This document shows, one piece after another, positions 10,181-42,192 of a stretch of DNA of 64,000 nt (the stretch's first letter is position 1; the number at the start of each line of letters is the position of its first letter). The stretch comes from Zygnema cylindricum. Lineage: Eukaryota > Streptophyta > Zygnematophyceae > Zygnematales > Zygnemataceae. Under the pieces are notes generated by a model. It saw only the letters and a list, made by a program, of their open reading frames with translations, searched no databases and had not been told where the DNA came from. The DNA lies in the NCBI GenBank assembly GCA_037447655.1, contig JBBHKE010001006.1, positions 62,001 through 126,000 on the forward strand, given 5' to 3'. Both the position numbers and the translations under genes were made by a program.

Positions 10181-11467
10181 TTGAAATGTGAAGCAGGCTG
10201 GATTGTAGATTCACGTGCCTCTATGCACATGTGTAAGGATAAATACCCGTTCACTAAGATGAAAAGGATTCCCACCGTAGAGATAGAGTACGGGGATGGG
10301 AGGATAGTTACTACTACTCTTGTACGATCGGTAGATCAGAAAGTGTTAGTAGAAGGAAAAACATCCATAATTACATTCTCCAACGTATTCTTTATTCCAG
10401 AGCTAAACAAAAACCTCATCTCTACGTCTGTATTAGATGATAAGGGTTTTGATACTAGCACTAGAAAAGGAGAGGGTTTTGATACTAGCAGTAGAAAAGG
10501 AGTCTTTACTGCTAGTTTTGAGGAGGAAGTTTATTTCACTGCAGAAATAGGTAGCCAAGGGATGTTTAGGCTGATTTTAACCAATGAAAAGAAGAAAATT
10601 TATTATATTGGAGTTGATGATATAACGTTGTGGCATAAAAGGCTTGGGCATGTGAATCTAAATAAGTTACGAGAGATGAAAAAGATGGGAGTGGTGGAAG
10701 GGATCCTGTTCGGTGAGAGTGAAAATCTAAGTAATTGTATTAGATGTGCTCAAGGTAAAGCACACATATTACCCTTCCCAAACACTGCCACCTTTAAGGG
10801 AGAAAAGATTCTAGATTTAGTAAACACACATATTTGGGGGCCTGCCAAAGTGCCCTCACCCAGGGGGAAGAGATTTATGATGACTATCGTTAATGATAGG
10901 CCTCGCTATTCCAGGGTGTTTTTTATGAAAAATAAGTCAGAGGCTTAGGAATGTTTTAGGAAATATAAAGCATGGAAGGAAAAACTCCATAAACCCCCAA
11001 TCAAGAGGATAAATAGTGATAATGGTGGAGAGTACACCTCTAATCAATTTGAGGATTTTCTGAGAGAAGATGCAATGCAACACCCAAAGGCAGTTCCTAA
11101 AAATCTCAAGCAGAATGGTGATGCTGAAAGATTAAATAGAACACTGAGAGATAGTGTTAGGAGTATGTTGTCAATTAAAAAGATAGGAAAGAAGTTTTGG
11201 GCCGAAGCAATGAACTGTGCAAATTATCTCAAGTATAATGTTCTTACTTTGGTTGTAAAAGGCCAAACACCATATGAGAGATGGACAGGCCGAAAACCAG
11301 ATGTTTCACACTTAAAGGTTTTCGGTAGTCAAGTGTCCAGTTTAGACACAAATCTACCAGAGTGGAAGTTAGATCCAAAGGGAAAACTAGGATATCTACT
11401 AGGTTATGATGAAGATGTCATAGGATATAAAGTCTATGATCTTAAGAGAGAAGATAGAAATCTATAA
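10181..11467 (+). pseudogene. pol: Copia protease and integrase remnant
   Basis: The first open stretch (10181-10948) starts with the protease active-site loop IVDSRAS, where the usual DSGAS glycine is arginine, which should kill the enzyme. It continues to a pre-integrase finger (LWHKRLGHVN, then CIRCAQGK) and the start of the integrase core (DLVNTHIWGPA, first Asp replaced within the motif). A TAG at 10946 separates it from the rest: SDNGGEY near 11020, then the Glu region (LKQNGDAERLNRTL, from about 11110) and the C-terminal LKVFGSQ segment. A duplicated heptapeptide-like block (GFDTSTRKGE / GFDTSSRKGV) lies near 10445-10505. Confidence 0.8.
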
Positions 11468-19590: not shown

Positions 19591-20846
19591 CTAGTCTAAT
19601 TTTAATTTCAGTTTTAGTCTACATTTTTCTCTGCAATATTTTAATTTGGGAGAGGGCACTAGTTTTGTCATCATATGAGCCACCATCTCCTCATTAGTTC
19701 TATATAGAAGATTCACAATCTTATTCTCAACTTTTTCCCTCACAAAACTCAATCTTATTTCCATATGCTTAGCTTTGAAATGATGTTTTGGAATGGCTTC
19801 AATTGGAATGGCAGCTTGATTATCACAAAACACTTCATGCACTCCCTCCTTCATATACCCCAATTCTTGCAACAAGGATTTGACCCACATTTACTCTTTC
19901 ACAATAGAACAAGACGCCATGTACTAAGCCTCCATAGTAGACTGAGCAACCACCTTTGGTTGCTTACTGCTCCAACAACAAACACCTTCCCTCACATACA
20001 ACACATACCCAGAAGTGCATCTTCTCATAGGTGCATCCCCATAACCAACATCACTCCAAAGTGTTATGAGTGTGCTTCCCTCCCAAATGCAACCATAACT
20101 CTCTAGTTCCTACCAGATACCTAATGACTCTCTTGGCTGCCTCCCAATCTTTCATTTTAGGATTGTTAAGACTCCTACTGAGGACTCTTACGACTGCCGC
20201 TATATCTAGCCTTGTACAGTTTATAAAGTAGATCAAACTTCGTACGACCTGGAAAAGGGAAAAACTTCATAAACTCTCTCTTCTCTGGACTCATGTGATC
20301 ACCTAAGATTATCCCTCCTCCTTCTACACTCCCATCACTTACTTTCTTCAAGTCCATGGGAGTTGTACAACTGTTTGCCTTTTCCATCTGGAATTTCTCA
20401 AGCATATTACCCATTGATTCGTTCTGAGTAAGTCTGATATTCCTCTTCCCCCTTTCTCTCTCTATTTGGATCCCCAAAATATATCTTACCTCCTTGAAAT
20501 CCTTCATATCAAATCTGTTTCTAAGATCTTTCTTTAACTTACTAGTATTTTCCAAAGTTTTACTCAACACAGGCAAATCATCCACATAAATTGCAATAAA
20601 AATGACACCATTCTCATCTTCAAACATAAAGATAGAATGGTCTAAACTTATCCGGATATATCCCAGACTGGTGAGATACTCATCTAGTCTTTTATTCCAC
20701 TGTCGGGGATCCTGCTTGAATCCATATAAGGACTTTATGAGCTTGCAGACTTTGCTCTCTTCTCCTTCTTCCAAAAATCCCTCTGGTTGCCTCATGAAAA
20801 TTTCTACCTCTAACTCACCATTAAGAAAAGTAGTCTTAATATCCAT
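19591..20846 (-). pseudogene. pol: Copia RT and RNase H remnant
   Basis: The longest frame (20175-20846) reads DIKTTFLNGELEVEIFMRQ, SLYGFKQDPRQWN, the catalytic IYVDD and the GIQIERE segment. Lower down are YFINCTRLDIA (20051-20236) and, in a further frame, WVKSLLQELG and FCDNQAAIPIEAIPKHHF (19591-19890). It is closely related to the plus-strand element at 12-13.4 kb but the two differ enough to be separate copies or subfamilies. Several frameshifts make it non-functional. Confidence 0.85.
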
Positions 20847-31260: not shown

Positions 31261-31679
31261 GAAAATCGGACAAAAAGTGTACGGAGAAAAGATGTTTTAA
31301 ATGGCAAAAAAAATATTAACAAAAATAGCGATACAAGGTGTACTTCTTTTGGTCGATTCTTATCCTTGCACCAAAATAGTATTGTACATTCTAAATTCCT
31401 GTTAACACTAAAAAATCTTACACGCTAATAACGATGGACACTTTAAGAAAATGGATTGCAATGATTGAAAATGTCGACAACCAATGGCGTTGTCACAATG
31501 TGTTAACCCACCAATGTTTTAATAGACGATTGTTGACCAAAGAAAAAAGAAAATCTTTTGATATGCTCCCCTCTACACATTGAAAAGATTTTACGTCATG
31601 TAGAGTTAGGGCATGTTTCCATCTGATAAAGTAATGGTTTTTTTTTGTTGTTTTGCTCCAAAAGTCAAAATCTCCAGGG
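31261..31679. other. Spacer between hAT element and inverted repeat
   Basis: AT-rich, no coding or repeat signal recognised. Confidence 0.4.
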
Positions 31680-33550
31680 GTGTCCCCATGTATTAAAATA
31701 TCTACTTTTCTTTGTCGTTTTGCCCGAAAATTCAGGGAACTTTGAGAAAAACTTTAGTCGTACGAGAAAATCATTATAACCAAAGTACAGTGAACGTCAA
31801 CTTGATACTTCGAATGCACTACATGTTTGTCGTCATGTGAACGCATTTTGGCCTTTTCCTCTTTTCGACCCCACGGCAGGAAAATCCAGCCCATCAAAAA
31901 ACTTCATCAAAAATCATCTCGAAAGGCTGTTTTTAGTTGAAGTATCGCCCAAACAACAAATGAAAAGCGGCTCACGCACGCGCCACTCGTGTGGGAAAAT
32001 TTTAAGACGAGGGAGAGTACTCGTTATTTTTCTCCGTGCCCATCACGCGCATGTATAGAAAAGACGAGCATGTCGGCAAAAAATTTGCAAGGGTCTCGGA
32101 CCTCCACTTTCATGGGTCCTTTGCAAAATTTTGCGGCGTCTTCGCCTCTCCCCTCTCCCTCTTACACAATTGCTTTTATCTCACACTAATTAGAATGAGG
32201 CACAACAATACTACTACGAAATGAAAGATATTTGAAAAATAATTCTTTTGACTACCTTTAAGTCGAGTGAGAAAAGTCGAAAAGACGACATCGGGTAGCC
32301 ATGGCTAAAAGTTCTTGAATTCGTGACGTCGACGTTGTCATAAGTGAGCATGGCGTCACAATGTCACAAAACCCTAAACATCCGCCATATCAAAAATTAC
32401 AAAAATCTAGTTATTTGTAACAGTCCTTGTTTTTTTTTGCGTCACCAATTTCGTAGTCCTATTCAACTGTCACAAAATTGTACCTACGTCTACAATCGTC
32501 ACATGTTAAAGTTCCTATTTTAAATTCGCACATTGGGACGCTCTTCAAAGTAGTACTGAGCATCTTCACCACAGTCCTAAATACTTTATCAAAGTACCAA
32601 TGTAACGCTGGCCTTGTCCCCATGTAATCGGTACTTTGATAAAGTATTTTGGACTGTTGTGAAGATTCTCAGTACTACTTTGAAGAGCGTCCCAATGTGC
32701 GAATTTAAAATAGGAACTTTAACATGTGACGATTGTAGACGTAGGTAGAATTTTGTGACGGTTTAAGACGAGTACGAAATTTTCGACGATTGGTGAAGCC
32801 AACAAAAACAACGACGATTGTAGACGTCAAATTAATTTTGTGACATTAGGGTTTTGTCACATTGTGACGCCATGCTCACTTGTAACAATGTCAACCCCAC
32901 AAATTCAAGAACTTTCCGCCATGGCTACCCGATTTCATTTTTCTGACTTTTCTCACTTGACTTGCCATAAAAATATACATAAAGGTAGTCTAAAGAATTC
33001 TTTTTCAAATATCTTTCATTTCATACTAGTATTGTCGTGCATCATTCTAATAAGTGTGAGATAAAAATAATAGTGTAAGAGGGAGAGGGGAGAGACGGCG
33101 ATGCCACAAAATTCCGCAAAGGACCCATGAATGGAAATGGAGGTCCGAGACCCCTGCAATTTTTTTTCCGTACATGCTCGTCTTTTTCGTACATGCGCGT
33201 GATGGGCAGGGAGAAAAATAGGGAGTCCTCTCCCTCGTCTTAAAATTTTCCCACTCGTGTGGCGTGTGAGTGGGTAATTTTTCATTCGTTGTTTGGGCAA
33301 TAATTGAACCGAAATCACCTCTTATGGGTGATTTCGGTTGAAGTTTTTCGATGGGATGGATTCTTTTGCCCCGAGGTCGAAAATGAGTTCACATTACGAC
33401 AAACATGGAGTACATTGGAAGTATCGAATTGACGTTCACTGAACTGTGGTAAAAGTGATTTTTTTCGTACGGCTAAAGTTTTTCTCGTTTGGGACTGAAT
33501 TTTGGGGGAAAACGACAGAGAAAAGTAGATACTTTAATACATGGGGACAC
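31680..33550. repeat. Inverted repeat, ~920-bp arms, 31-nt loop
   Basis: The left arm (31680-32598) and right arm (32630-33550) are reverse complements with scattered changes and indels. Both outer ends carry GTGTCCCCATGTATTAAA, and the inner 90 bases are nearly perfect. The loop (32599-32629) itself contains GTCCCCATGTA, echoing the arm ends. Foldback transposons and hairpin-RNA loci have this form. The arms carry no credible protein. Confidence 0.85.
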
Positions 33551-34053
33551 TCCCTTAGCCGCAAAGAGAAAATCTCCAACCGTACCAAAAAAATGAAAAT
33601 GAAAACATCACTATACAATTTGCATCATCCTCCAACCTAAGATGTAATGCTATTTGTCGTCTTCCTCGTTGACTCACTTTCGCATCACTCCGTCTCATCT
33701 TCAAACTTCTACAGAAATCACCTCGCGAGGCGATTTTAGTTAGAGTAACAAGGTATAACCGAATAGGAGGACGTTGTGGCTCGCGTCACACGTTTTATTA
33801 AACTATTTTGCAGTACGCGGAGAAAAAAAAATCTTATTGTACGTTTACTGCCTATACGTACTTTATTCCGCACAAGGGCCGTGGAGGGGTCTTGAGCATT
33901 AGATGCCATTTCGCAAAAGCAAAGTCCGTGAAGGCGCCTCTCTCCCTCTCTCTCTCCATCTCCCTTTCCCACTACCTCGTGGAATAAAACACGTCAATTA
34001 TGGTATCAAGTGAAACATCTTTTAAACATATTGCTTTTGACTATCTCTAGGCG
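33551..34053. other. Spacer with CT-rich patch
   Basis: No gene. A CTCTCC run lies at 33940-33965, and TGGTATCAAG at about 33999 resembles an iMet primer site, but no matching element structure is evident. Confidence 0.35.
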
Positions 34054-34380
34054 TTAGATTTTTGCCAACTTGAGGGTTTGCTTCAAGGGGCGATGGGAAA
34101 TATTAGCGTGGAGAAATAAATGGAGGTCACCTAAATCCATGATGTCAAAGTGAGCAGAGAGAAGCTGCTTGAATTTTTCAATTTCAACTCTATTTGGACC
34201 CGTAGCAATGTAAGTAAACATAGACGGTGAGAATGACAAAACCATTGTCTTCTTTCTCAGCTCTATATGCAATGATGGAACAAGCTTAGGAGAACCTTTT
34301 TAAGTGTTTTTTGCCAACCTTAAGGGCTTGCTTCAAGCCATAGACTGATTTGCTGTCGTGCATGTGTCAAATAACATGAA
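34054..34380 (-). pseudogene. Copia RT fragment of a different lineage
   Basis: A 72-codon frame holds the region after the RT catalytic box: GPNRVEIEKFKQLLSAHFDI then MDLGDLHLFL. Farther up (34330-34380) a broken frame gives a YGLKQ-like motif. The YVDD box itself is degraded. It differs from the copia family at 8-22 kb. Confidence 0.7.
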
Positions 34381-34546
34381 GGTGCATGCAATATCATCAG
34401 CTCCGCTCAACTTAAACTCAAATAATAGCGAGATATCGTAAATAAAATAAAAACATAAAAGTAAAAATGGATAAATACAACAACAGGCAAGGTGATTGGA
34501 AAAGAAAGGTCAACGACTTAGCTGGTTATGGTTAGGTCGGTTTATC

Positions 34547-34559
34547 CCCCCCCCCAGCT
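34547..34559 (-). promoter_or_regulatory. 3' polypurine tract of the methyltransferase element
   Basis: In minus sense AGCTGGGGGGGGG lies a few bases beyond the Pol stop. An identical AGCT-G9 string lies inside Pol at 37931-37943. Confidence 0.6.
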
Positions 34560-34561
34560 CT

Positions 34562-37500
34562 TTAGCCGGCAGAGGAGCTGGCCAACACGACCGGTAGCTC
34601 GCGACATCCGTGGCAAAACCAGTGACCGTCCGGAACCGCCAATAAAGGTGGCACCAAACACTCCATGTGAAACCCTTGATTGCAATGATCACAAAGTAAC
34701 ATGGTGGTTTCCCCGTCTGATCGATGGCAAAAGGTACATGCCGTCGCCTCCGTAATCGGCATACGCATAGGATCCATATCCTGCGACAAATCTGGTAAGT
34801 AACATGGAGCACAATTCTTGGAGTGCTCTCGAAAAGTCCGTGTGTCCGCTCCTTGTAATCCTAACATCCCGTTCGGATCCACCTCGATAATCCGTAGGAT
34901 GTGTGCAGAAACATCCGTGTCCAAAGTGTCAAAAGATTGCCTGCGAAGATAAACATAATCTCCCACCCGATAGGGCTTCTGTTGCGGCCTGTAACTGCCG
35001 CTGCGAGTGGTGGCAAACCGAAGTGTGTCCCGATGCTGGGCAATCTGCAGGTTATCAAAAGCCATGGGCATTTCACGGGCAAAAAGCAAAGCACGACGAG
35101 TGAGTTCTTCCAAAAAAATAGTGTCAGACATCAGCGGAAGTGGGAAGCTTGCGGCTTTCTGAATATTGCGACCGAGCAATGGTTGTCGCCCAAATAAAAC
35201 ATAATACGGGCTGAAATTAGCCAGACTAGCCTGAACCGACATGCGATATCCCATGGTAATGTAACCAAGGGACTCGTCCCAAACCGAAATGTGTTTCTCT
35301 AAGCAATGCTTACGCAAGGCACGCTTAAATGTCTGGACTGCTCGTTCAGCCAGGCCATCGGCCTGGGGGTGATCCCGGCTAGTACGACGATGATCGATGA
35401 GAGCCTCATCAAGCATCTCTTGAAATTCTCCCCGAAATTCTGTACCTTGATCGGTTAGGACCTCGGCTAGGGCACCGTATCTCATAAGGACATGTTCCTT
35501 AAAAGCTGCGGTGGTTAACTTAGCGGTCTTGTGAGGCAGGGCTACAACTTCTACCCACTTACTGAAATTTTCAATCATAATCATGATATATTGTTTACCC
35601 TTACGTGAGATAGGAAAAGGTCCAGCCAAATCGACCGACCATCGATAGAACAAACCTCTAATAGGTAGAGGTTGAAGCGTAGTCTGCCGGTTAGAGAAGG
35701 AAGTTCGAAGACGGTCACAGGTGGCACACTTGTGCAGAATAGCAGCGACATCAGCTTGCATTCCTGACCACCAATACCGTGCCTGAACTAGACTTAACGT
35801 TCGCTTGGTACCGTAGTGACCAAGCTCGGTGTGAATCTGCTCAATGAGAGAAAGACGCTCGGTAGGCCGTGGAACGTGCCTATGGCTTCCGTCTGCCAAC
35901 AACCGAACTAAAGATCCCCCAAGCCAAAGGTAACTTTTGGCCCTCTTTTTCACTCTGTCTTCTTCATCAGAGGTGGTGCCGGACCTGAAGGTCTGGGAGG
36001 ATAGGAAAAGAATGAGAGGCCCATCACGCCAAGGATCTGTGGCGGGGCGGGGGTTCGGAACAGACGCCAGGCAGTAAGTAAGATAAGAACCCATTGACAT
36101 GACGGGAACATCGTCGTCATCGAAATCCTGTCGAACTCCGTTATCTGTTGTTCGGGGCAAAGGATTTCGGGAAATTCCGTCTGCGTTTAGACTAAGCAGA
36201 CCTGGTCGGTGAATTATTTCAACGTCATATTCTTGTAAGATTAAAGCCCATCGGGCTAACTTCCCGGAAAGCTTATCGTTAGTCATCAGCCAATGTAAGG
36301 GCTGATGGTCAGTTAAGAGTGTGAAAGGTTTTCCGTACAAATAATGGCGGAAGTGAACGACTCCCCAAACCGCGGCTAGACACTCTCCCTCGTAGCTACT
36401 ATAATTTGATTCGGCCCGGTTATTGCTTCTACTCGCGTAAGCAACTACGTATTCCTCTCCGCTCAACTCTCTTTGTGTCAAAATGGCAGCGATTCCGGGT
36501 TTCCCAAAGTCAGTTTGTAGACAAAAAGGGAGTTTGTGATTGGGAGGACGGAGAATTGGGGCACTTGATAAAGCGGTTTTTAATTTTTGAAATGCGGAAA
36601 TCTGATCGGGACCCCATATAAACGCCACTTCCTTCTTGAGAAGGTCGTTTAACGGGAATGCGATGGTGCTAAAATTAGATACAAATCTGCGATAATAATT
36701 AGCAAGTCCGAGAAAAGCTCGCAGACTGGTGAGGTCCGTGGGAGCAGGCAATTTACTGATTGCCTCTACCTTTGCTTCGAGAGGAGTGATCCCCTCAGCC
36801 GAGATAAAATGGCCGAGGTAAGGCACTCCCTCGGCTCCAAAGGTGCATTTCGCTGGATGACATTTTAATCCGACCTTTTTCAATTCAGTCAATACCCATT
36901 CGATGTGAGCAGCGTGCTCTTCGATAGTAGCCGAGGCAATGATAAGGTCATCGATGTAACATCTAGCAAACTTACAGCCTCCAAGAACGGAGTCCATGAC
37001 TTTTTGAAATACTGCCGGAGCATTTTTTAGTCCGAATGGCATTACAGCCCATTCCCATCGGCCGTCGCTACCCCAAAAGGCAGTTTTATGCCGGTCTTTT
37101 TCCTCTATCTCGATTTGATTGAATCCTTGACGGAGGTCAAGGATACTAAAATAATTTGCTCCGCCTACATGATCAAATATTTCTTCGGCAAGAGGCATGG
37201 GATGACGATCTTGAACTGTTCTAGCATTTAGTTCACGATAGTCACCACACATTCGACGTTCAGTAAAATTTCCCTCGGAATCTTTTTTCCGAGGCATGAC
37301 AGTGGGAGCTGCAAATGTGGAGTCTGACCGATAGATTAGGCCAGCTTCCTCTAGTTCAGCACATCGCTTGTCTACCATTTCCCATTCAGTTTCTGACAAA
37401 CGATGTTTCGGTTTAAATATAGGGCGATCATCTTCGAGATCTATCGACATTTTATAAGCAGTGTGACGACCCAAATCATTCATAGAAAAGGCAAAGGCAT

Positions 37501-38353
37501 CGATATTTCGTAAAACTACGTCATTCAGTAACTCTTGTTCGGCCTTTGTTAGATTTGTGCCGAATTTCCATTTAGGAGCATCAGGATTTTCGGTCGTCAT
37601 AGCTTCCATGGCTTGTGCAAAGGCCAACTGCTCATCTGCGATAAGCGTTTGACCTAACTCGTAAGCTACAGGTGTCTGTTTAAGGCAATTAACCGAATGA
37701 TTCCAACTGCGTGTTGGAAAAGCAGCACTCCAATGAGGAGTGGGTGGAATATGCATGGGACTTGTAGACTGGACAGCCGTATATGCGGGAATAGACCAGG
37801 ACATATGGCTAGGATTGAGGAAATCGTAGACAGAGATTTCCGGAACTGGTGGAATTGGAGAAGGAAAGAGGAAAAATTGAAATGTGGTCCCTTGGAGAGT
37901 GGGACGGAAAGATTTTCTTAGTGATGCATTCCCCCCCCCAGCTGGTTGAGACGGATGTGCCTGAGAGTGGCGACCAGCTGCAAACCCAAGACCTAAAACA
38001 AAAGACAAAGACTGAGGGTCCATGACACGACCTAATAAAGTGCATCTTTGACGTTCAGTAAGACCAGGAGCGGCAGTAGTGCCGGGAATGAAATGCATTA
38101 GGTGTTCTCGTTCCGTAGAGGTAGGCTCTTCGAGCTCACCGGTATGAATGTTTCGGAGCATGCCAGGACCGTCATTAGAGAATGCATGTGAATGTGGGTA
38201 AGAAACTAAGGTAGGAAGCACCTTGAGAGGTTGACCCGGGACATTGACACTGAAATTAGGGGGACAGTCCTTTTGAATGCAAGGCTGCACCTTATGAAAA
38301 GGAAGAAGGGCAGCCTGAATGTCTGTAGGAGGAGGACGAATAACAAGTTGGCC
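34562..38353 (-). CDS. pol: Pol: methyltransferase end, RT, RNase H, integrase, PHD
   Basis: Residues counted from the GTG at 38290. About 1-105 complete the methyltransferase (EHLMHFIPGTTAAPGL, QRCTLLGR), then a Pro-rich linker. RT follows, with SILDLRQGFNQIEI (382-395), MPFGLKNAP and catalytic YIDD (445-448). RNase H has D594, E636, D661 and D704 (NADGISR). Integrase has an HHCC finger (H820, H825, C855, C858) and catalytic D887, D947 and E982, with 34 residues between the last two (35 is usual). At 1185-1229 is a complete C4HC3 PHD finger (C1185, C1188, C1200, C1203, H1208, C1211, C1226, C1229), where chromoviruses have a chromodomain. The frame has no ATG before residue 44, so it must be read from the methyltransferase frame. 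It looks catalytically competent. Confidence 0.92.
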   Translation of the reverse strand, partial: GQLVIRPPPTDIQAALLPFHKVQPCIQKDCPPNFSVNVPGQPLKVLPTLVSYPHSHAFSNDGPGMLRNIHTGELEEPTSTEREHLMHFIPGTTAAPGLTERQRCTLLGRVMDPQSLSFVLGLGFAAGRHSQAHPSQPAGGGNASLRKSFRPTLQGTTFQFFLFPSPIPPVPEISVYDFLNPSHMSWSIPAYTAVQSTSPMHIPPTPHWSAAFPTRSWNHSVNCLKQTPVAYELGQTLIADEQLAFAQAMEAMTTENPDAPKWKFGTNLTKAEQELLNDVVLRNIDAFAFSMNDLGRHTAYKMSIDLEDDRPIFKPKHRLSETEWEMVDKRCAELEEAGLIYRSDSTFAAPTVMPRKKDSEGNFTERRMCGDYRELNARTVQDRHPMPLAEEIFDHVGGANYFSILDLRQGFNQIEIEEKDRHKTAFWGSDGRWEWAVMPFGLKNAPAVFQKVMDSVLGGCKFARCYIDDLIIASATIEEHAAHIEWVLTELKKVGLKCHPAKCTFGAEGVPYLGHFISAEGITPLEAKVEAISKLPAPTDLTSLRAFLGLANYYRRFVSNFSTIAFPLNDLLKKEVAFIWGPDQISAFQKLKTALSSAPILRPPNHKLPFCLQTDFGKPGIAAILTQRELSGEEYVVAYASRSNNRAESNYSSYEGECLAAVWGVVHFRHYLYGKPFTLLTDHQPLHWLMTNDKLSGKLARWALILQEYDVEIIHRPGLLSLNADGISRNPLPRTTDNGVRQDFDDDDVPVMSMGSYLTYCLASVPNPRPATDPWRDGPLILFLSSQTFRSGTTSDEEDRVKKRAKSYLWLGGSLVRLLADGSHRHVPRPTERLSLIEQIHTELGHYGTKRTLSLVQARYWWSGMQADVAAILHKCATCDRLRTSFSNRQTTLQPLPIRGLFYRWSVDLAGPFPISRKGKQYIMIMIENFSKWVEVVALPHKTAKLTTAAFKEHVLMRYGALAEVLTDQGTEFRGEFQEMLDEALIDHRRTSRDHPQADGLAERAVQTFKRALRKHCLEKHISVWDESLGYITMGYRMSVQASLANFSPYYVLFGRQPLLGRNIQKAASFPLPLMSDTIFLEELTRRALLFAREMPMAFDNLQIAQHRDTLRFATTRSGSYRPQQKPYRVGDYVYLRRQSFDTLDTDVSAHILRIIEVDPNGMLGLQGADTRTFREHSKNCAPCYLPDLSQDMDPMRMPITEATACTFCHRSDGETTMLLCDHCNQGFHMECLVPPLLAVPDGHWFCHGCRELPVVLASSSAG
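37931..37943 (-). promoter_or_regulatory. Possible central polypurine tract
   Basis: Minus-sense AGCTGGGGGGGGG within the linker between methyltransferase and RT (encodes AGGG). It repeats the 13 bases of the 3' tract at 34547-34559. Confidence 0.4.
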
Positions 38354-39225
38354 TCACGGAGTCTACCAATATCGATCAGGTTCGTCCATTTGGAGCGAAC
38401 CCGGTGTGCTAGTGAACCATGGCGAGCCGCGTCAATAATAAGAGGCGGTCCAATTAATTGTTCGATTCGTTGATAATCAGCCAAAACCGTAGGTCTTGGA
38501 TCATTATAGGCCGCGACATTTTCCAAGATATACCCTATAGGATGATCTAAAGTTTGTAGAAAATGCAGGATGCGAACCAACTCAAAAAATAATTTGGTGC
38601 GGGGATCGGCTAATCCGAGACCTTTCCCGGCCCGAGACATTCCCTGGCACTCCCATCCGCCAAAAACTAGATCGATTGGACCAATCTCGAGTAAGTGATG
38701 GTTGCCTACAATCCGGATGTCTTGTGGCATGGCAATATGCATATGCTCGTATGCAGATTTTGGGAACAAATGCGGGTATTGGGAATGCAAAAGATTACAA
38801 TGAGGTAATTGTGCTTTCCGTGCTAACGGATCAATCTCCACCGAATAATAAAATCGGATTAATAATCCATTCCGCAAACATGCCAGTAGAGAAGTGCCTA
38901 TTCCAGCAAAAAGGTCCAAAATCACTAATCCATTTGGATGAGGTTTCAAATGGACCGGATTCCAATCAATGGGAAGAAACCCACAAGAGTCTGTAGGGAC
39001 TGGGATTGGGGAAGAGACAGGAGAAAGTGCAATTGATAAGGTTTGGTTATAGATCCGGTCAAATTCCCTCGTATCTATAAGAAAACCTGGGTCAATGAAA
39101 ATTTCTGGTAGGTAAGAACTATCGGGCAAAATTTCTTCTGCTGACAATGAATGAAATATTTCAGCCCCCACCGAATTCCCTGAAAATGCAGGTTTGGAGG
39201 TGGCCGAATTTGCAATAATAGGCAT
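38206..39225 (-). CDS. DNMT3-like cytosine-5 methyltransferase domain
   Basis: ATG at 39225. After about 95 variable residues come the methyltransferase motifs: I, LDLFAGIGTSLLACL (103-117, AdoMet binding); II, YSVEID (127-132); III, QDIR (168-171); IV, GGWECQGMS (189-197) with catalytic Cys193; VI, LENV (234-237); VIII, AHRVRSKW (273-280). Spacing and the motif VI-VIII sequence resemble DNMT3/DRM enzymes. The invariant proline before the catalytic cysteine is glutamate here. Near residue 290 the target-recognition and C-terminal parts move to the frame of Pol; codons after that in this frame are out of frame. The product would methylate cytosines in DNA, perhaps of the element itself or its target; that role is inferred. 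It follows protease by about 100 bp and leads straight into Pol. Confidence 0.9.
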   Translation of the reverse strand: MPIIANSATSKPAFSGNSVGAEIFHSLSAEEILPDSSYLPEIFIDPGFLIDTREFDRIYNQTLSIALSPVSSPIPVPTDSCGFLPIDWNPVHLKPHPNGLVILDLFAGIGTSLLACLRNGLLIRFYYSVEIDPLARKAQLPHCNLLHSQYPHLFPKSAYEHMHIAMPQDIRIVGNHHLLEIGPIDLVFGGWECQGMSRAGKGLGLADPRTKLFFELVRILHFLQTLDHPIGYILENVAAYNDPRPTVLADYQRIEQLIGPPLIIDAARHGSLAHRVRSKWTNLIDIGRLREANLLFVLLLQTFRLPFFLFIRCSLAFKRTVPLISVSMSRVNLSRCFLP

Positions 39226-39322
39226 GGGCTTCCTAGCGGAAATTAGCAGAATGCAGATTTTGCGTTCCGGAAGCTAGTGGGCCTATAAAAAAATGTTTGA
39301 TCATGCATGTCAACACCACCCC

Positions 39323-40402
39323 CTACACGAAATATAACGTCCTGTCCCCTAGGCATTCATAGTCACTACATTTAGTGACTAGAGCATGAACCGAGATTTC
39401 AGCAAAGTCTGAGGCCGTTTCGTTCTGGAACCTGAAAACAAGCGGTTCCTTAGTGATTCCTAGGACCGGTTCGGTTGTACCCGCTGATGTTAACAGGCGA
39501 GTAGAAGTGTACTGAAGCTTGTCAGGAGTTAGACCAAGCTTTAGTGCAAAGCTAGAGCCCAATATCACCGGCTTTGCACCCGTATCCATGAGAGGCAGGG
39601 AAGGGGCTATACCATTGATCAACAATGCACCCTTCGCATTATCCAAAAAACTGATGTGAGGATCGAGAGACTTTCGCTCATCCATGGAAATAGGCTGAAT
39701 AGCAGCAAGATTTCTGTGCAGCTGAAGTGCTTGTAACGCGGCAGCTGCAGCCGAGCTATCGGAGAGTAAGGAGATGGGGGAGATTTTCGGTGAGTCGGAA
39801 ATCATAACAGATAGAATGCACAAGCGTTCTTTCACGCGGTGTGCCTCATATATAGTTCGATCCACTATGTTGAGAGCTTCAGCCGCGATGGCTGAAGCGG
39901 TTTCAGGCAAGAGAGGAGAAGGTTCTTTAGTGAATGACAAAGGAATACGCGTGTTAGGTGTTTTACCGTCACGACTGTGATCGGTCAAACCTTTGTCGAA
40001 CGTAGCCTCTCGTTGTTGGATGGTGGAATCTCGTAATATTCGACCTGCCAACGTGGGCATGTGTACAACAGTGCGAGCCATGCCTGTAAATTGTTGCTTC
40101 ATTTGGGTCATGAAAGCTGCGAATTGTTCTTTCATTATAGCCGCCATTTGCTCTTGCATTTCTAAACGCTCTCTCTCTCTTCGAGATACCTTAGGTGGAG
40201 TGGTGTCTTTTTCCCGTTCTTTAACTGGTTGAACCTCTCTTGCGGATCGAGCTGGAATGCCACCACTCTTAATTTGGTTTTGGTAGGAATATTCCGGGTT
40301 TTTTATATGACAACGATGGACATAATGTCCGGTTTGCTTGCAATGTGTACAGGTAGCAGTTTTGTCTGGACACATTCGGGCATCATGCCTAGTCTTCCCA
40401 CA
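39323..40402 (-). CDS. CCHC fingers and aspartic protease
   Basis: Opens directly behind an in-frame TGA (40403-40405). The first finger spans that stop: C, F, stop, then CGKTRHDARMC. The second reads CTHCKQTGHYVHRC. A charged Met/Gln-rich coiled-coil-like part follows (REREREMQEQ-like, about 40140-40190), then a long linker. The protease active site is LPLMDTGAKPVILG near 39590-39550 (minus sense). The frame ends near 39323, 98 bp ahead of the methyltransferase ATG and in another frame. An ATG at 40375 could start a short form lacking the first finger. Confidence 0.85.
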   Translation of the reverse strand, partial: CGKTRHDARMCPDKTATCTHCKQTGHYVHRCHIKNPEYSYQNQIKSGGIPARSAREVQPVKEREKDTTPPKVSRRERERLEMQEQMAAIMKEQFAAFMTQMKQQFTGMARTVVHMPTLAGRILRDSTIQQREATFDKGLTDHSRDGKTPNTRIPLSFTKEPSPLLPETASAIAAEALNIVDRTIYEAHRVKERLCILSVMISDSPKISPISLLSDSSAAAAALQALQLHRNLAAIQPISMDERKSLDPHISFLDNAKGALLINGIAPSLPLMDTGAKPVILGSSFALKLGLTPDKLQYTSTRLLTSAGTTEPVLGITKEPLVFRFQNETASDFAEISVHALVTKCSDYECLGDRTLYFV

Positions 40403-41701
40403 TCAGAAACATAATCGGTTTCCGGGAGCAACAGGTGGGGTTCCCATGGCCGGAACTTTAGGAGGCCGGTTGTTAGGACGAGGATTGTTCCATGGTGGAA
40501 CAATCGGTTCTTTCGGGACCGCTTTAGGTCGGTCATGGGCTTCCCACCAACAATTTTGCATTTCGTATTCCACGGCATGCTCGGCGGCTTGGTCGAAAGT
40601 GAACTTCAAGCCATACGTTTGAGTCAGGTGACTCTGGATAAATTTCTTAGACTGACTCGGAAACTGTCCTACAAATTTCTGGACAGCTTCAGCATCCGAC
40701 ATTAAGTCCGGCAATGCTTCACGTAGAGCTTCCATGCGAGCACGCATGGCCGGGGCAGTCTCTCCTGACTTACGTTCGAAGTTCATTAACTCCCGAACTT
40801 GGTCAGGGTTTTGCATACGGTATTCCGCTTGCAACATTTCAAACATGACTGAGAGCGGATCCAATATAGGGATCCTCATCGCTGGTCGTGCTGGAATTCC
40901 AGCGCGTGCGGCTATAGCAAACTGTTGCGGTATTTCCGCAACTGCTGCTGTAACAACATCGCCGTTGAGATCGAGGACTTCCGAGATAGCCGGTTGGTAT
41001 GGAATTTCTGGTTGTCCTATAATAGCAGGACTCCCAGCGAAAGCCGGAGAAAACTCTGTCATCGCAAGTACGGAATCATACTTGCGAGAATAAAGAGTAA
41101 GGGCTGAACCTCGAAGGTAACGGCCTAAAAGAGAGAAAGCGACCCGTAGATCAAACCGATCTTGGTACCGAAATGCAAGATCACGCATTTCGGTATCGAA
41201 TAGCATTCGAAAATGCGATAAAGTCATGGTGTCCTTCATTCCTGAAAAACAGAAATGAAGGCGCCCCCCTCCCTCCGATGTGGAAGCCATTTCCAATAAT
41301 GGAATGCTTGGGGATAAAACTGGATTGATAATTTGCGGAAACCAAAAAGATAATGAATCGGAATCCGACCCGTCAAAGGAATCGTGGTCAGATTCCTCTT
41401 CGAAAAATGCGGTGGAGATTGATGATAAGGAAGATACTGAGGTGAGAGTGGATCGAACCGAAGGGGAAATTTGACCCGCGATATTTAGGAAATGATGGTC
41501 CAAAAGGCTAGATAAATCTGATGGTCCGGGTTCCGTGGGCCTAAACGAGGCCGACGATCGAGTGGTTCCGACAGGATAATCAAGATTATCCCAATCGGTG
41601 GGCATAAAAATGATAACACCAAATGATGACCAGATAACAAACCGATCTATCCGATATGCCTCAAATGCCAAGCCACACCACTCTTTTGTCCAATCAGCCA
41701 A
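40403..41701 (-). CDS. gag: Gag
   Basis: The frame has 432 codons. ATG at 41701 or, more likely, the ATG of MPTDWDNLDYP at about 41605 starts it, since the first 32 codons overlap leader sequence. The N-terminal third is acidic and Ser-rich (SSLSSISTAFFEEESDHDSF). The C-terminal half holds a retrotransposon Gag domain with QAEYRMQNPDQVRELMNFER, REALPDLMSDAEAVQKFVGQ and a Pro-rich tail, ending in NRLCF, the first two positions of the first zinc finger. The TGA that closes it lies inside that finger, so the frame was probably continuous with the next one, or the stop is read through. Confidence 0.8.
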   Translation of the reverse strand: MADWTKEWCGLAFEAYRIDRFVIWSSFGVIIFMPTDWDNLDYPVGTTRSSASFRPTEPGPSDLSSLLDHHFLNIAGQISPSVRSTLTSVSSLSSISTAFFEEESDHDSFDGSDSDSLSFWFPQIINPVLSPSIPLLEMASTSEGGGRLHFCFSGMKDTMTLSHFRMLFDTEMRDLAFRYQDRFDLRVAFSLLGRYLRGSALTLYSRKYDSVLAMTEFSPAFAGSPAIIGQPEIPYQPAISEVLDLNGDVVTAAVAEIPQQFAIAARAGIPARPAMRIPILDPLSVMFEMLQAEYRMQNPDQVRELMNFERKSGETAPAMRARMEALREALPDLMSDAEAVQKFVGQFPSQSKKFIQSHLTQTYGLKFTFDQAAEHAVEYEMQNCWWEAHDRPKAVPKEPIVPPWNNPRPNNRPPKVPAMGTPPVAPGNRLCF

Positions 41702-41716
41702 TCAATCTCTAACAGG

Positions 41717-42020
41717 GCCTCGATGGCCAGATCTATCAGGAAGCCGTATTACCAAAACCTTCTACCCTGCAAACAAGGGGACAAGGCCGAAGGGCCAGAT
41801 CTATAAAGGCAAATAACTTACTATCCAAGCACTCCCAAGTGCAGATCTAAAGCGACACAATCCACAAAAGTGCTAACCAATGCCTCCAACGGCAAGATCT
41901 ATGGAAGAAATCCCACTCCGGGCAAAGCAAACTCAGCCAAGGCCACTCAGGGCCAGATAGCAAGCAAGGAAAGCTGGACAAATGCAATGCTCAATACAAG
42001 TGGATTAACACTAATCCACT
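41717..42020 (-). repeat. Hairpin array in the element leader
   Basis: Plus-strand units: GGCC-TCGAT-GGCC-AGATCTA (41717-41736), GGCC-GAAG-GGCC-AGATCTA (41786-41804), GCACT-CCCA-AGTGC-AGATCTA (41829-41849), TGCC-TCCAAC-GGCA-AGATCTA (41881-41901), GGCC-ACTCAG-GGCC-AGATAG (41941-41960). Units 3-5 are preceded by CCAA. Stem sequences differ but stay paired while AGATCTA is kept. A sixth, perfect 9-bp stem with loop ACAC lies at 41999-42020. Confidence 0.7.
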
Positions 42021-42192
42021 CCAAACACGATCCCTCTATGCGATCAACCGACTACCTTAACACGCGCCTGTACCCGCAAGGCATCGTGATACTTACATAT
42101 CACTCTTAGCAATCTGGTGATTACCAAGGGTGAACTGCGGTTGTTCGCTACAACCAAAGTTTTGCAGAGCTCCCAAGAACGGATCCGCTCCA

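Follow-up and report, generated by a model that had tools for sequence, protein, structure and literature searches.

The 64,000-nucleotide stretch of Zygnema cylindricum DNA analysed here (contig JBBHKE010001006.1, positions 62,001 to 126,000; the window hereafter) contains a minus-strand unit that codes for Gag, protease, a DNMT3-like methyltransferase, reverse transcriptase, RNase H, integrase and a PHD finger, and this unit is real. The copy in the window, which is truncated and broken in frame, is best read as belonging to a large Ty3/Gypsy-like family that encodes these domains as one polyprotein, and the element was probably inserted from end-joined circles of complementary DNA (cDNA), which integrase would cut open at an internal palindrome; family identity and circle route are held here as a single explanation and judged probable as a whole. 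The new part is the route of integration, as DNMT3 within a Gypsy Pol with DIRS-like repeats has already been published (PMC5890265). Names such as C829 and C1344 denote other copies of the element in the same genome (assembly of 352.8 Mb in 2689 contigs).

Split repeats and target duplications

End pieces were read for 24 copies. The 5' repeat is named A1, the repeat directly after the coding part B1, and the two that follow A2 and B2, the latter outermost at the 3' side. Six of the 24 copies have the full order A1-coding-B1-A2-B2 with both outer ends, and all six start with TGTCATGC and end with GCACGACA, which gives TG...CA ends. The 4-bp target duplications are exact in four of these six (TTGG on both sides of C1344, AAGG for C829, CCCT for C1915 and CCAT for C232) and agree at three of four positions in the two others; the chance of four exact duplications in six is about 4 in 10^9. 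Such ends with a short target duplication are those of the Ty3/Gypsy long terminal repeat (LTR) retrotransposons, as is the order of protease, reverse transcriptase, RNase H and DDE integrase, and the best PDB match of Pol is in fact Ty3. The identical LTRs that Ty3/Gypsy elements carry at both ends are absent here; instead, the direct repeats are split, as they are in DIRS/PAT elements.

PAT-type DIRS elements are not known to have target duplications, and they use a tyrosine recombinase. Their published description gives them the same split direct repeats, A1-B1-A2-B2 (PMC4157794), and the same order is stated for KnitGypsy-Dnmt3 (PMC5890265). This likeness would follow from a DIRS/PAT-like replication, in which the B1-A2 stretch would bridge the closing circle and the repeats would share their origin with those of the tyrosine-recombinase elements. 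We consider this very unlikely, considering that the element has a DDE integrase and target duplications, that Pfam found no tyrosine recombinase in the frames of the window or of C1344 (the integrase core rve being present instead), and that the variable site is A2|B2, whereas the spacer at B1|A2 measures two bases in all 12 copies read there.

The internal palindrome and the A2|B2 joins

The point where B1 meets A2 is the palindrome GACA-GC-TGTC, the two middle bases of which are absent at the outer ends. These two extra bases are GC in eight of the 12 copies, AC in two, and CC and GT in one each. The GC form constitutes the palindrome GACAGCTGTC, found as an exact 20-mer 125 times in the genome, against 0 for the reversed control. 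B starts directly after the polypurine tract, like the plus-strand-primed start of an LTR, and the position where A gives way to the leader is fixed. Thus, the ends expected of reverse transcription are B-start and A-end, and it is these expected cDNA ends that are found fused at A2|B2 in 11 of the 24 copies.

A genome pattern that allowed 0-20 bases between A-end and B-start found the A2|B2 join of one subfamily at 41 places (control 0). The 41 joins make up 20 different strings, the commonest occurring nine times: 20 joins are blunt, 11 share one base and 10 have one to three extra bases. Seven Gs from the polypurine tract are retained in one of the 41, and bases from beyond the A end in two. 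With the same type of pattern the A1 boundary was identical at 31 of 31 places, and at the boundary between tract and B1 (37 places) the differences were chiefly in how long the G-run is and in one A. Moreover, 13 elements could be matched to their own B1; eight of them share a B1 start, yet these eight have six different joins. The variation at A2|B2, set against a constant A1 and a near-constant tract|B1, argues that the join is made anew, and imprecisely, with each insertion.

That the repeats of an ordinary element of the KnitGypsy-Dnmt3 type were merely shuffled by a chance rearrangement or a misassembly is scarcely credible. Such an element has a published precedent for its DNMT3 within a Gypsy Pol and its DIRS-type repeats, but the same order recurs in six insertions, each flanked by different sequence, and the 41 joins are not a product of chance. 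Recombination offers another route to the same order: one-LTR circles could have recombined homologously into older solo A-B units, from which the target duplication would then stem, and this would also explain A-B units should those be common. However, the young copies have A1/A2 and B1/B2 pairs that are equally, and almost fully, identical (100% and 99.6% in C1344, 99.6% and 99.5% in C829, 99.5% and 99.5% in C1915), unlike what insertion into old units would leave, and the origin of the earliest A-B units, with their varied joins, would still be unexplained; we regard this route as highly improbable.

The steps of the preferred route would be as follows. Judged by where the polypurine tract and the A1 boundary lie, reverse transcription would produce B-gc-A as the LTR and B-gc-A-coding-B-gc-A as the linear cDNA, the ends of which would be joined imprecisely into a two-LTR circle with an A|B join. 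Integrase would cut one of the two internal GACA-GC-TGTC palindromes, whose two middle bases would be lost, and the opened circle would be inserted with a 4-bp target duplication, giving A1-coding-B1-A2-B2. The methyltransferase would probably methylate the cDNA or the circle prior to integration, and the PHD finger would probably guide the integrase to chromatin. The A1 boundary would in this scheme be the primer site.

Textbook relatives are not known to integrate from opened DNA circles. The cleavage step itself has parallels: as reported, the integrase of prototype foamy virus (PFV) cuts the palindromic LTR-LTR junction of the two-LTR circle, in a chemistry proposed there to involve loss of the two bases between CA and TG (PMC1180852), and that of human immunodeficiency virus 1 cleaves the LTR-LTR palindrome in vitro (PMC1905944). 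The PFV palindrome consists of joined LTR ends, whereas that of the Zygnema element would lie inside the reverse-transcribed LTR and be inherited, the A|B join not being the cut site. Integration at the circle junction was proposed for retroviruses in 1984, and according to one account was set aside after work that identified the linear form as the precursor (PMC11054761). This role of linear DNA in retroviruses speaks for a linear precursor here too: an unusual template switch during reverse transcription could yield linear DNA that already ends in A-start and B-end and is used by integrase with no circle, and TG/CA ends with 4-bp duplications would be equally expected. Nevertheless, a templated switch predicts a constant join, whereas A2|B2 varies as in end joining and the template-copied boundaries are constant or nearly so, which leaves this alternative unlikely.

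Several observations weigh against insertion from circles. The full order with both ends is limited to the six copies, and A2|B2 was read in only the 11. The flanks of two of the six agree imperfectly (TCAT/GCAT for C449, CCTC/GCTC for C2573). Two further copies consist of A-coding-B and have no target duplication (CACT/GCAA for C2577, GGGT/TAAT for C783), and in C1112 (L045-L046; GAAG/GTGT, likewise without duplication) the second A is inverted, so that both ends start with TGTCATGC; this copy is perhaps a product of self-integration. Seven copies (C633, C1864, C82, C1908, C12, C49 and C2293) have no recognisable full 3' structure. By eye, no TGG of a tRNA-type primer site follows A1. The activity of the methyltransferase is unsure, given a Glu for Pro exchange before the catalytic Cys (see below), and circle, cDNA and integrase action are all deduced here from genome sequence. 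The 15 copies beyond these six and three miss one or both recognisable ends; the A2|B2 join is still found in five of them, C1407, C284, C906, C1272 and C71. In C1407, whose 5' repeat was not found, the join lies near position 700 of the 931 of A.

The window copy and its domains

The initial annotation had described a Gypsy-type element at 34545-42110, with a DNMT3-like methyltransferase between protease and reverse transcriptase and a terminal PHD finger. This architecture holds: Pfam and PDB comparisons recover all the named domains, on the minus strand and in the order given, with 'Gag' called from its position and two CCHC knuckles seen by eye; Pfam lists no gag family for this frame. The extent was roughly right, the homology to the sister copy C829 being slightly wider (blastn, 42192..34352 on the minus strand). 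C829 and the window copy are 96.8% identical across 7497 aligned columns, far beyond chance. Two end regions of C829 have no counterpart in the window copy: A1 with the adjoining ~308 nt of leader at the 5' side, and A2-B2 at the 3' side. A repeat search of the window alone found no element-flanking repeats, because the outer repeats are absent from this copy, as became clear only from the others; likewise, the annotation did not mention that the repeats are split, the target sites duplicated and the joins varied, all of which is visible only through other copies. The features are listed here from 5' to 3' of the element.

41702..42192, minus strand: remaining part of the untranslated leader (blastn to the C829 leader, 96.5-98.3% identity, stops at 42192)
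40403..41701, minus strand: gag frame up to a TGA within the first CCHC knuckle (knuckle and stop read by eye)
39323..40375, minus strand: frame with the second CCHC knuckle and the aspartyl protease (protease match at ~39446-39619)
38206..39225, minus strand: DNMT3-like methyltransferase with motifs LDLFAGIGTS, WECQ, ENV and AHRVR (PF00145, E 2e-12; best PDB match DNMT3A)
37910..38353, minus strand: C-terminal part of the methyltransferase, in a different frame, where the Pol frame begins (tblastn with P0001, P0002 and P0017)
34562..38290, minus strand: Pol, an open reading frame of 1242 codons
36809..37264, minus strand: reverse transcriptase with YIDD (PF00078, Pol residues 343-494)
36227..36616, minus strand: RNase H (PF17919/PF17917, Pol residues 559-688)
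35366..35866, minus strand: integrase, H2C2 zinc domain and rve core (PF17921/PF00665, Pol residues 809-975)
34604..34738, minus strand: PHD finger (PF00628, Pol residues 1185-1229)
34546..34561, minus strand: polypurine tract immediately 3' of the Pol stop (sequence read; pattern match C750:96530-96560)
34354..34545, minus strand: repeat B1, ~192 bp (blastn 93% to B of C829; homology ends about here, without A2 or B2)

The Pfam match of the protease lies just above the threshold (Asp_protease_2, E 4e-5, 24.6 bits at a cut-off of 24.3), and the E-values in Pol are RVT_1 8e-30, RT_RNaseH 2e-34, Integrase_H2C2 4e-15, rve 2e-11 and PHD 4e-10. The annotation had also called the motifs nearly complete. 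This is true of the motifs, whereas the copy itself is truncated and broken in frame at three places. These are the TGA of the first zinc knuckle and, close to the C-terminus of the protease, a frame change (both by eye), followed by a second frame change in the methyltransferase near 38345 (tblastn).

By its PDB matches, the methyltransferase appears nearest to DNMT3 among the known classes: DNMT3A/B/C are the best 29 of the 48 PDB sequences matched by the window copy (best E 1.2e-11), and all 29 matches of the C1344 enzyme are DNMT3. Its motifs, I to VIII, are in unrearranged order. Motif IV of the window copy (~38650) reads WECQ, a Glu replacing the usual Pro before the catalytic Cys. Of 54 methyltransferases with letters at this place, 32 have Glu and 18 have Pro before the Cys, and the Cys itself is kept in 53. 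The PHD finger matched those of PHF12, KDM5, DPF3 and BAZ2 in the PDB. Several PHD fingers of these types bind unmodified H3K4.

A second tract, AGCTGGGGGGGGGG, which resembles the 3' polypurine tract, lies at ~37930 (minus strand) between methyltransferase and reverse transcriptase, and may be a central tract or due to chance. Elsewhere in the window there are a long imperfect palindrome of several inverted-repeat pairs, fold-back-like (31677-33553), and two Copia-type remnants, one with Pol_BBD and gag_pre-integrs (10181-10948, plus strand) and one with RVT_2 (20175-20846, minus strand). Scans of the window for tRNAs and Rfam families gave no matches.

The family, its relatives and known systems

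The joint of methyltransferase and Pol is not confined to this locus, so that the refuting case named in the initial annotation does not apply. A methyltransferase search of the genome (1643 first-look candidates) scored at least 119 methyltransferase-bearing places, that of the window included, at 62-100% identity; the number is a lower bound. C1344 has a single open frame of 2395 codons with methyltransferase, reverse transcriptase, RNase H, integrase and PHD finger (Pfam lists no gag or protease in it at E 0.001), and in C829 1147 codons are open from gag into the methyltransferase. These open frames indicate that the polyprotein is real, and that the breaks in the window copy are decay or shared old changes. 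The phase of the methyltransferase frame was measurable in 28 of 35 sequences and was of one type in 16, of another in 11 (among them the window and the young C829) and of a third in one; a shared old change is a simpler explanation for this than a programmed frameshift.

The catalytic Cys is kept in 34 of 35 copies and the Glu of ENV in all 35. The ratio of nonsynonymous to synonymous divergence (dN/dS) is 0.17 for C1344 versus C783, with a median of 0.40 over 434 of 595 pairs; the copies had been picked by protein similarity, a choice biased towards conserved ones. Comparisons between subfamilies gave a dN of 0.15-0.27 and a dS too high to compute. CpG depletion was considered as a sign of self-methylation and rejected: the observed/expected ratio of CpG is 0.89 in the element, 0.85 in the rest of the window and 0.89-0.93 in other copies, and from C829 to the window copy C>T changes amount to 3.7% at CG, 2.4% at CHG and 1.7% at CHH (3.1, 3.6 and 1.6% in the opposite direction), a weak excess without depletion. 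The CpG content thus gives no strong sign of heavy self-methylation. Self-protection or the marking of target sites, put forward in the initial annotation, would be hypothetical roles of the methyltransferase.

A protein search with Pol gave 161 proteins at E 1e-30 or better (7999 scored candidates), of which the best 120 were considered; the methyltransferase region of P0007 had 18 protein matches and the window methyltransferase one. Named sources among the matches listed are Closterium, Klebsormidium nitens and the liverwort Calypogeia fissa (reverse transcriptase parts only for both), and an entry labelled Mesostigma (methyltransferase only); more distant matches are Gypsy proteins of animals and plants. 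A scan of viral contigs with Pol gave no matches. Among 138 sequences scanned, the methyltransferase precedes the reverse transcriptase within one protein in 21. In 33 it follows RNase H and precedes integrase, counting proteins without reverse transcriptase in which it simply precedes integrase and one lacking integrase in which it simply follows RNase H; in three it stands alone, and in 81, many of them partial proteins, it was not found. The placement between RNase H and integrase (P0023, P0028 and 31 others) forms one side of a branch of the methyltransferase tree (99/93, 57 rows). In the reverse transcriptase tree, made with a quick method and omitting 41 of the 58 rows that lack both methyltransferase and PHD finger, all 38 methyltransferase-bearing rows fall inside one group of 69 of the 77 rows (Shimodaira-Hasegawa-like approximate likelihood ratio test, SH-aLRT, 99). 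The group also holds 21 PHD-bearing rows without detected methyltransferase and 10 others; the PHD-bearing P0071 falls outside it, and the sequences with the methyltransferase before the reverse transcriptase do not form one clade.

In chromoviruses, the chromodomain sits at the C-terminus of integrase. These chromodomain-bearing Gypsy elements, named in PMC6338049, likewise have a module of the chromatin-reader type, which in the Zygnema element is a PHD finger, a predicted reader. The principle of a methyltransferase carried by a retrotransposon, cited in the initial annotation, has indeed been known since 2018 from KnitGypsy-Dnmt3 of Klebsormidium nitens, described by de Mendoza et al. 2018 as a Gypsy element with Dnmt3 in Pol and DIRS-like repeats (PMC5890265) and in both respects like the Zygnema element. 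The same report finds its methyltransferase under purifying selection and inactive in a yeast test that the authors call inconclusive, and proposes that the element methylates its cDNA. Within its main text, 'PHD', 'palindrom', 'target site' and 'circular' are never used, and 'TSD' (target-site duplication) once, for a LINE. SymbioDIRS-Dnmt3 of Symbiodinium, as described there, also has Dnmt3 in a retroelement Pol and A-coding-B-A-B repeats, but differs in its tyrosine recombinase, encoded in a separate open reading frame, where the Zygnema element codes for a DDE integrase within Pol and shows target duplications. The present arrangement was not found among the listed titles and abstract openings on Gypsy elements with PHD fingers, split direct repeats and circle integration, mostly from outside the subscription journals.

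Considering these parallels, a wider proposal can be put forward tentatively, at somewhat less than an even chance: a whole clade with DDE integrases may integrate obligately from end-joined circles cut at an inherited palindrome, and the capture of methyltransferases may be tied to circular life cycles (DIRS with Dam-like methyltransferases, SymbioDIRS-Dnmt3 and the Gypsy clade), the enzyme marking the extrachromosomal circle. If insertion from circles is true, the Zygnema family would be a natural case of the circle-junction route and would link LTR elements to those of the DIRS type. Each A2|B2 join would be the fossil of one circle, which makes the route directly testable, and the family would offer a new handle on the repeated pick-up of methyltransferases by retroelements.

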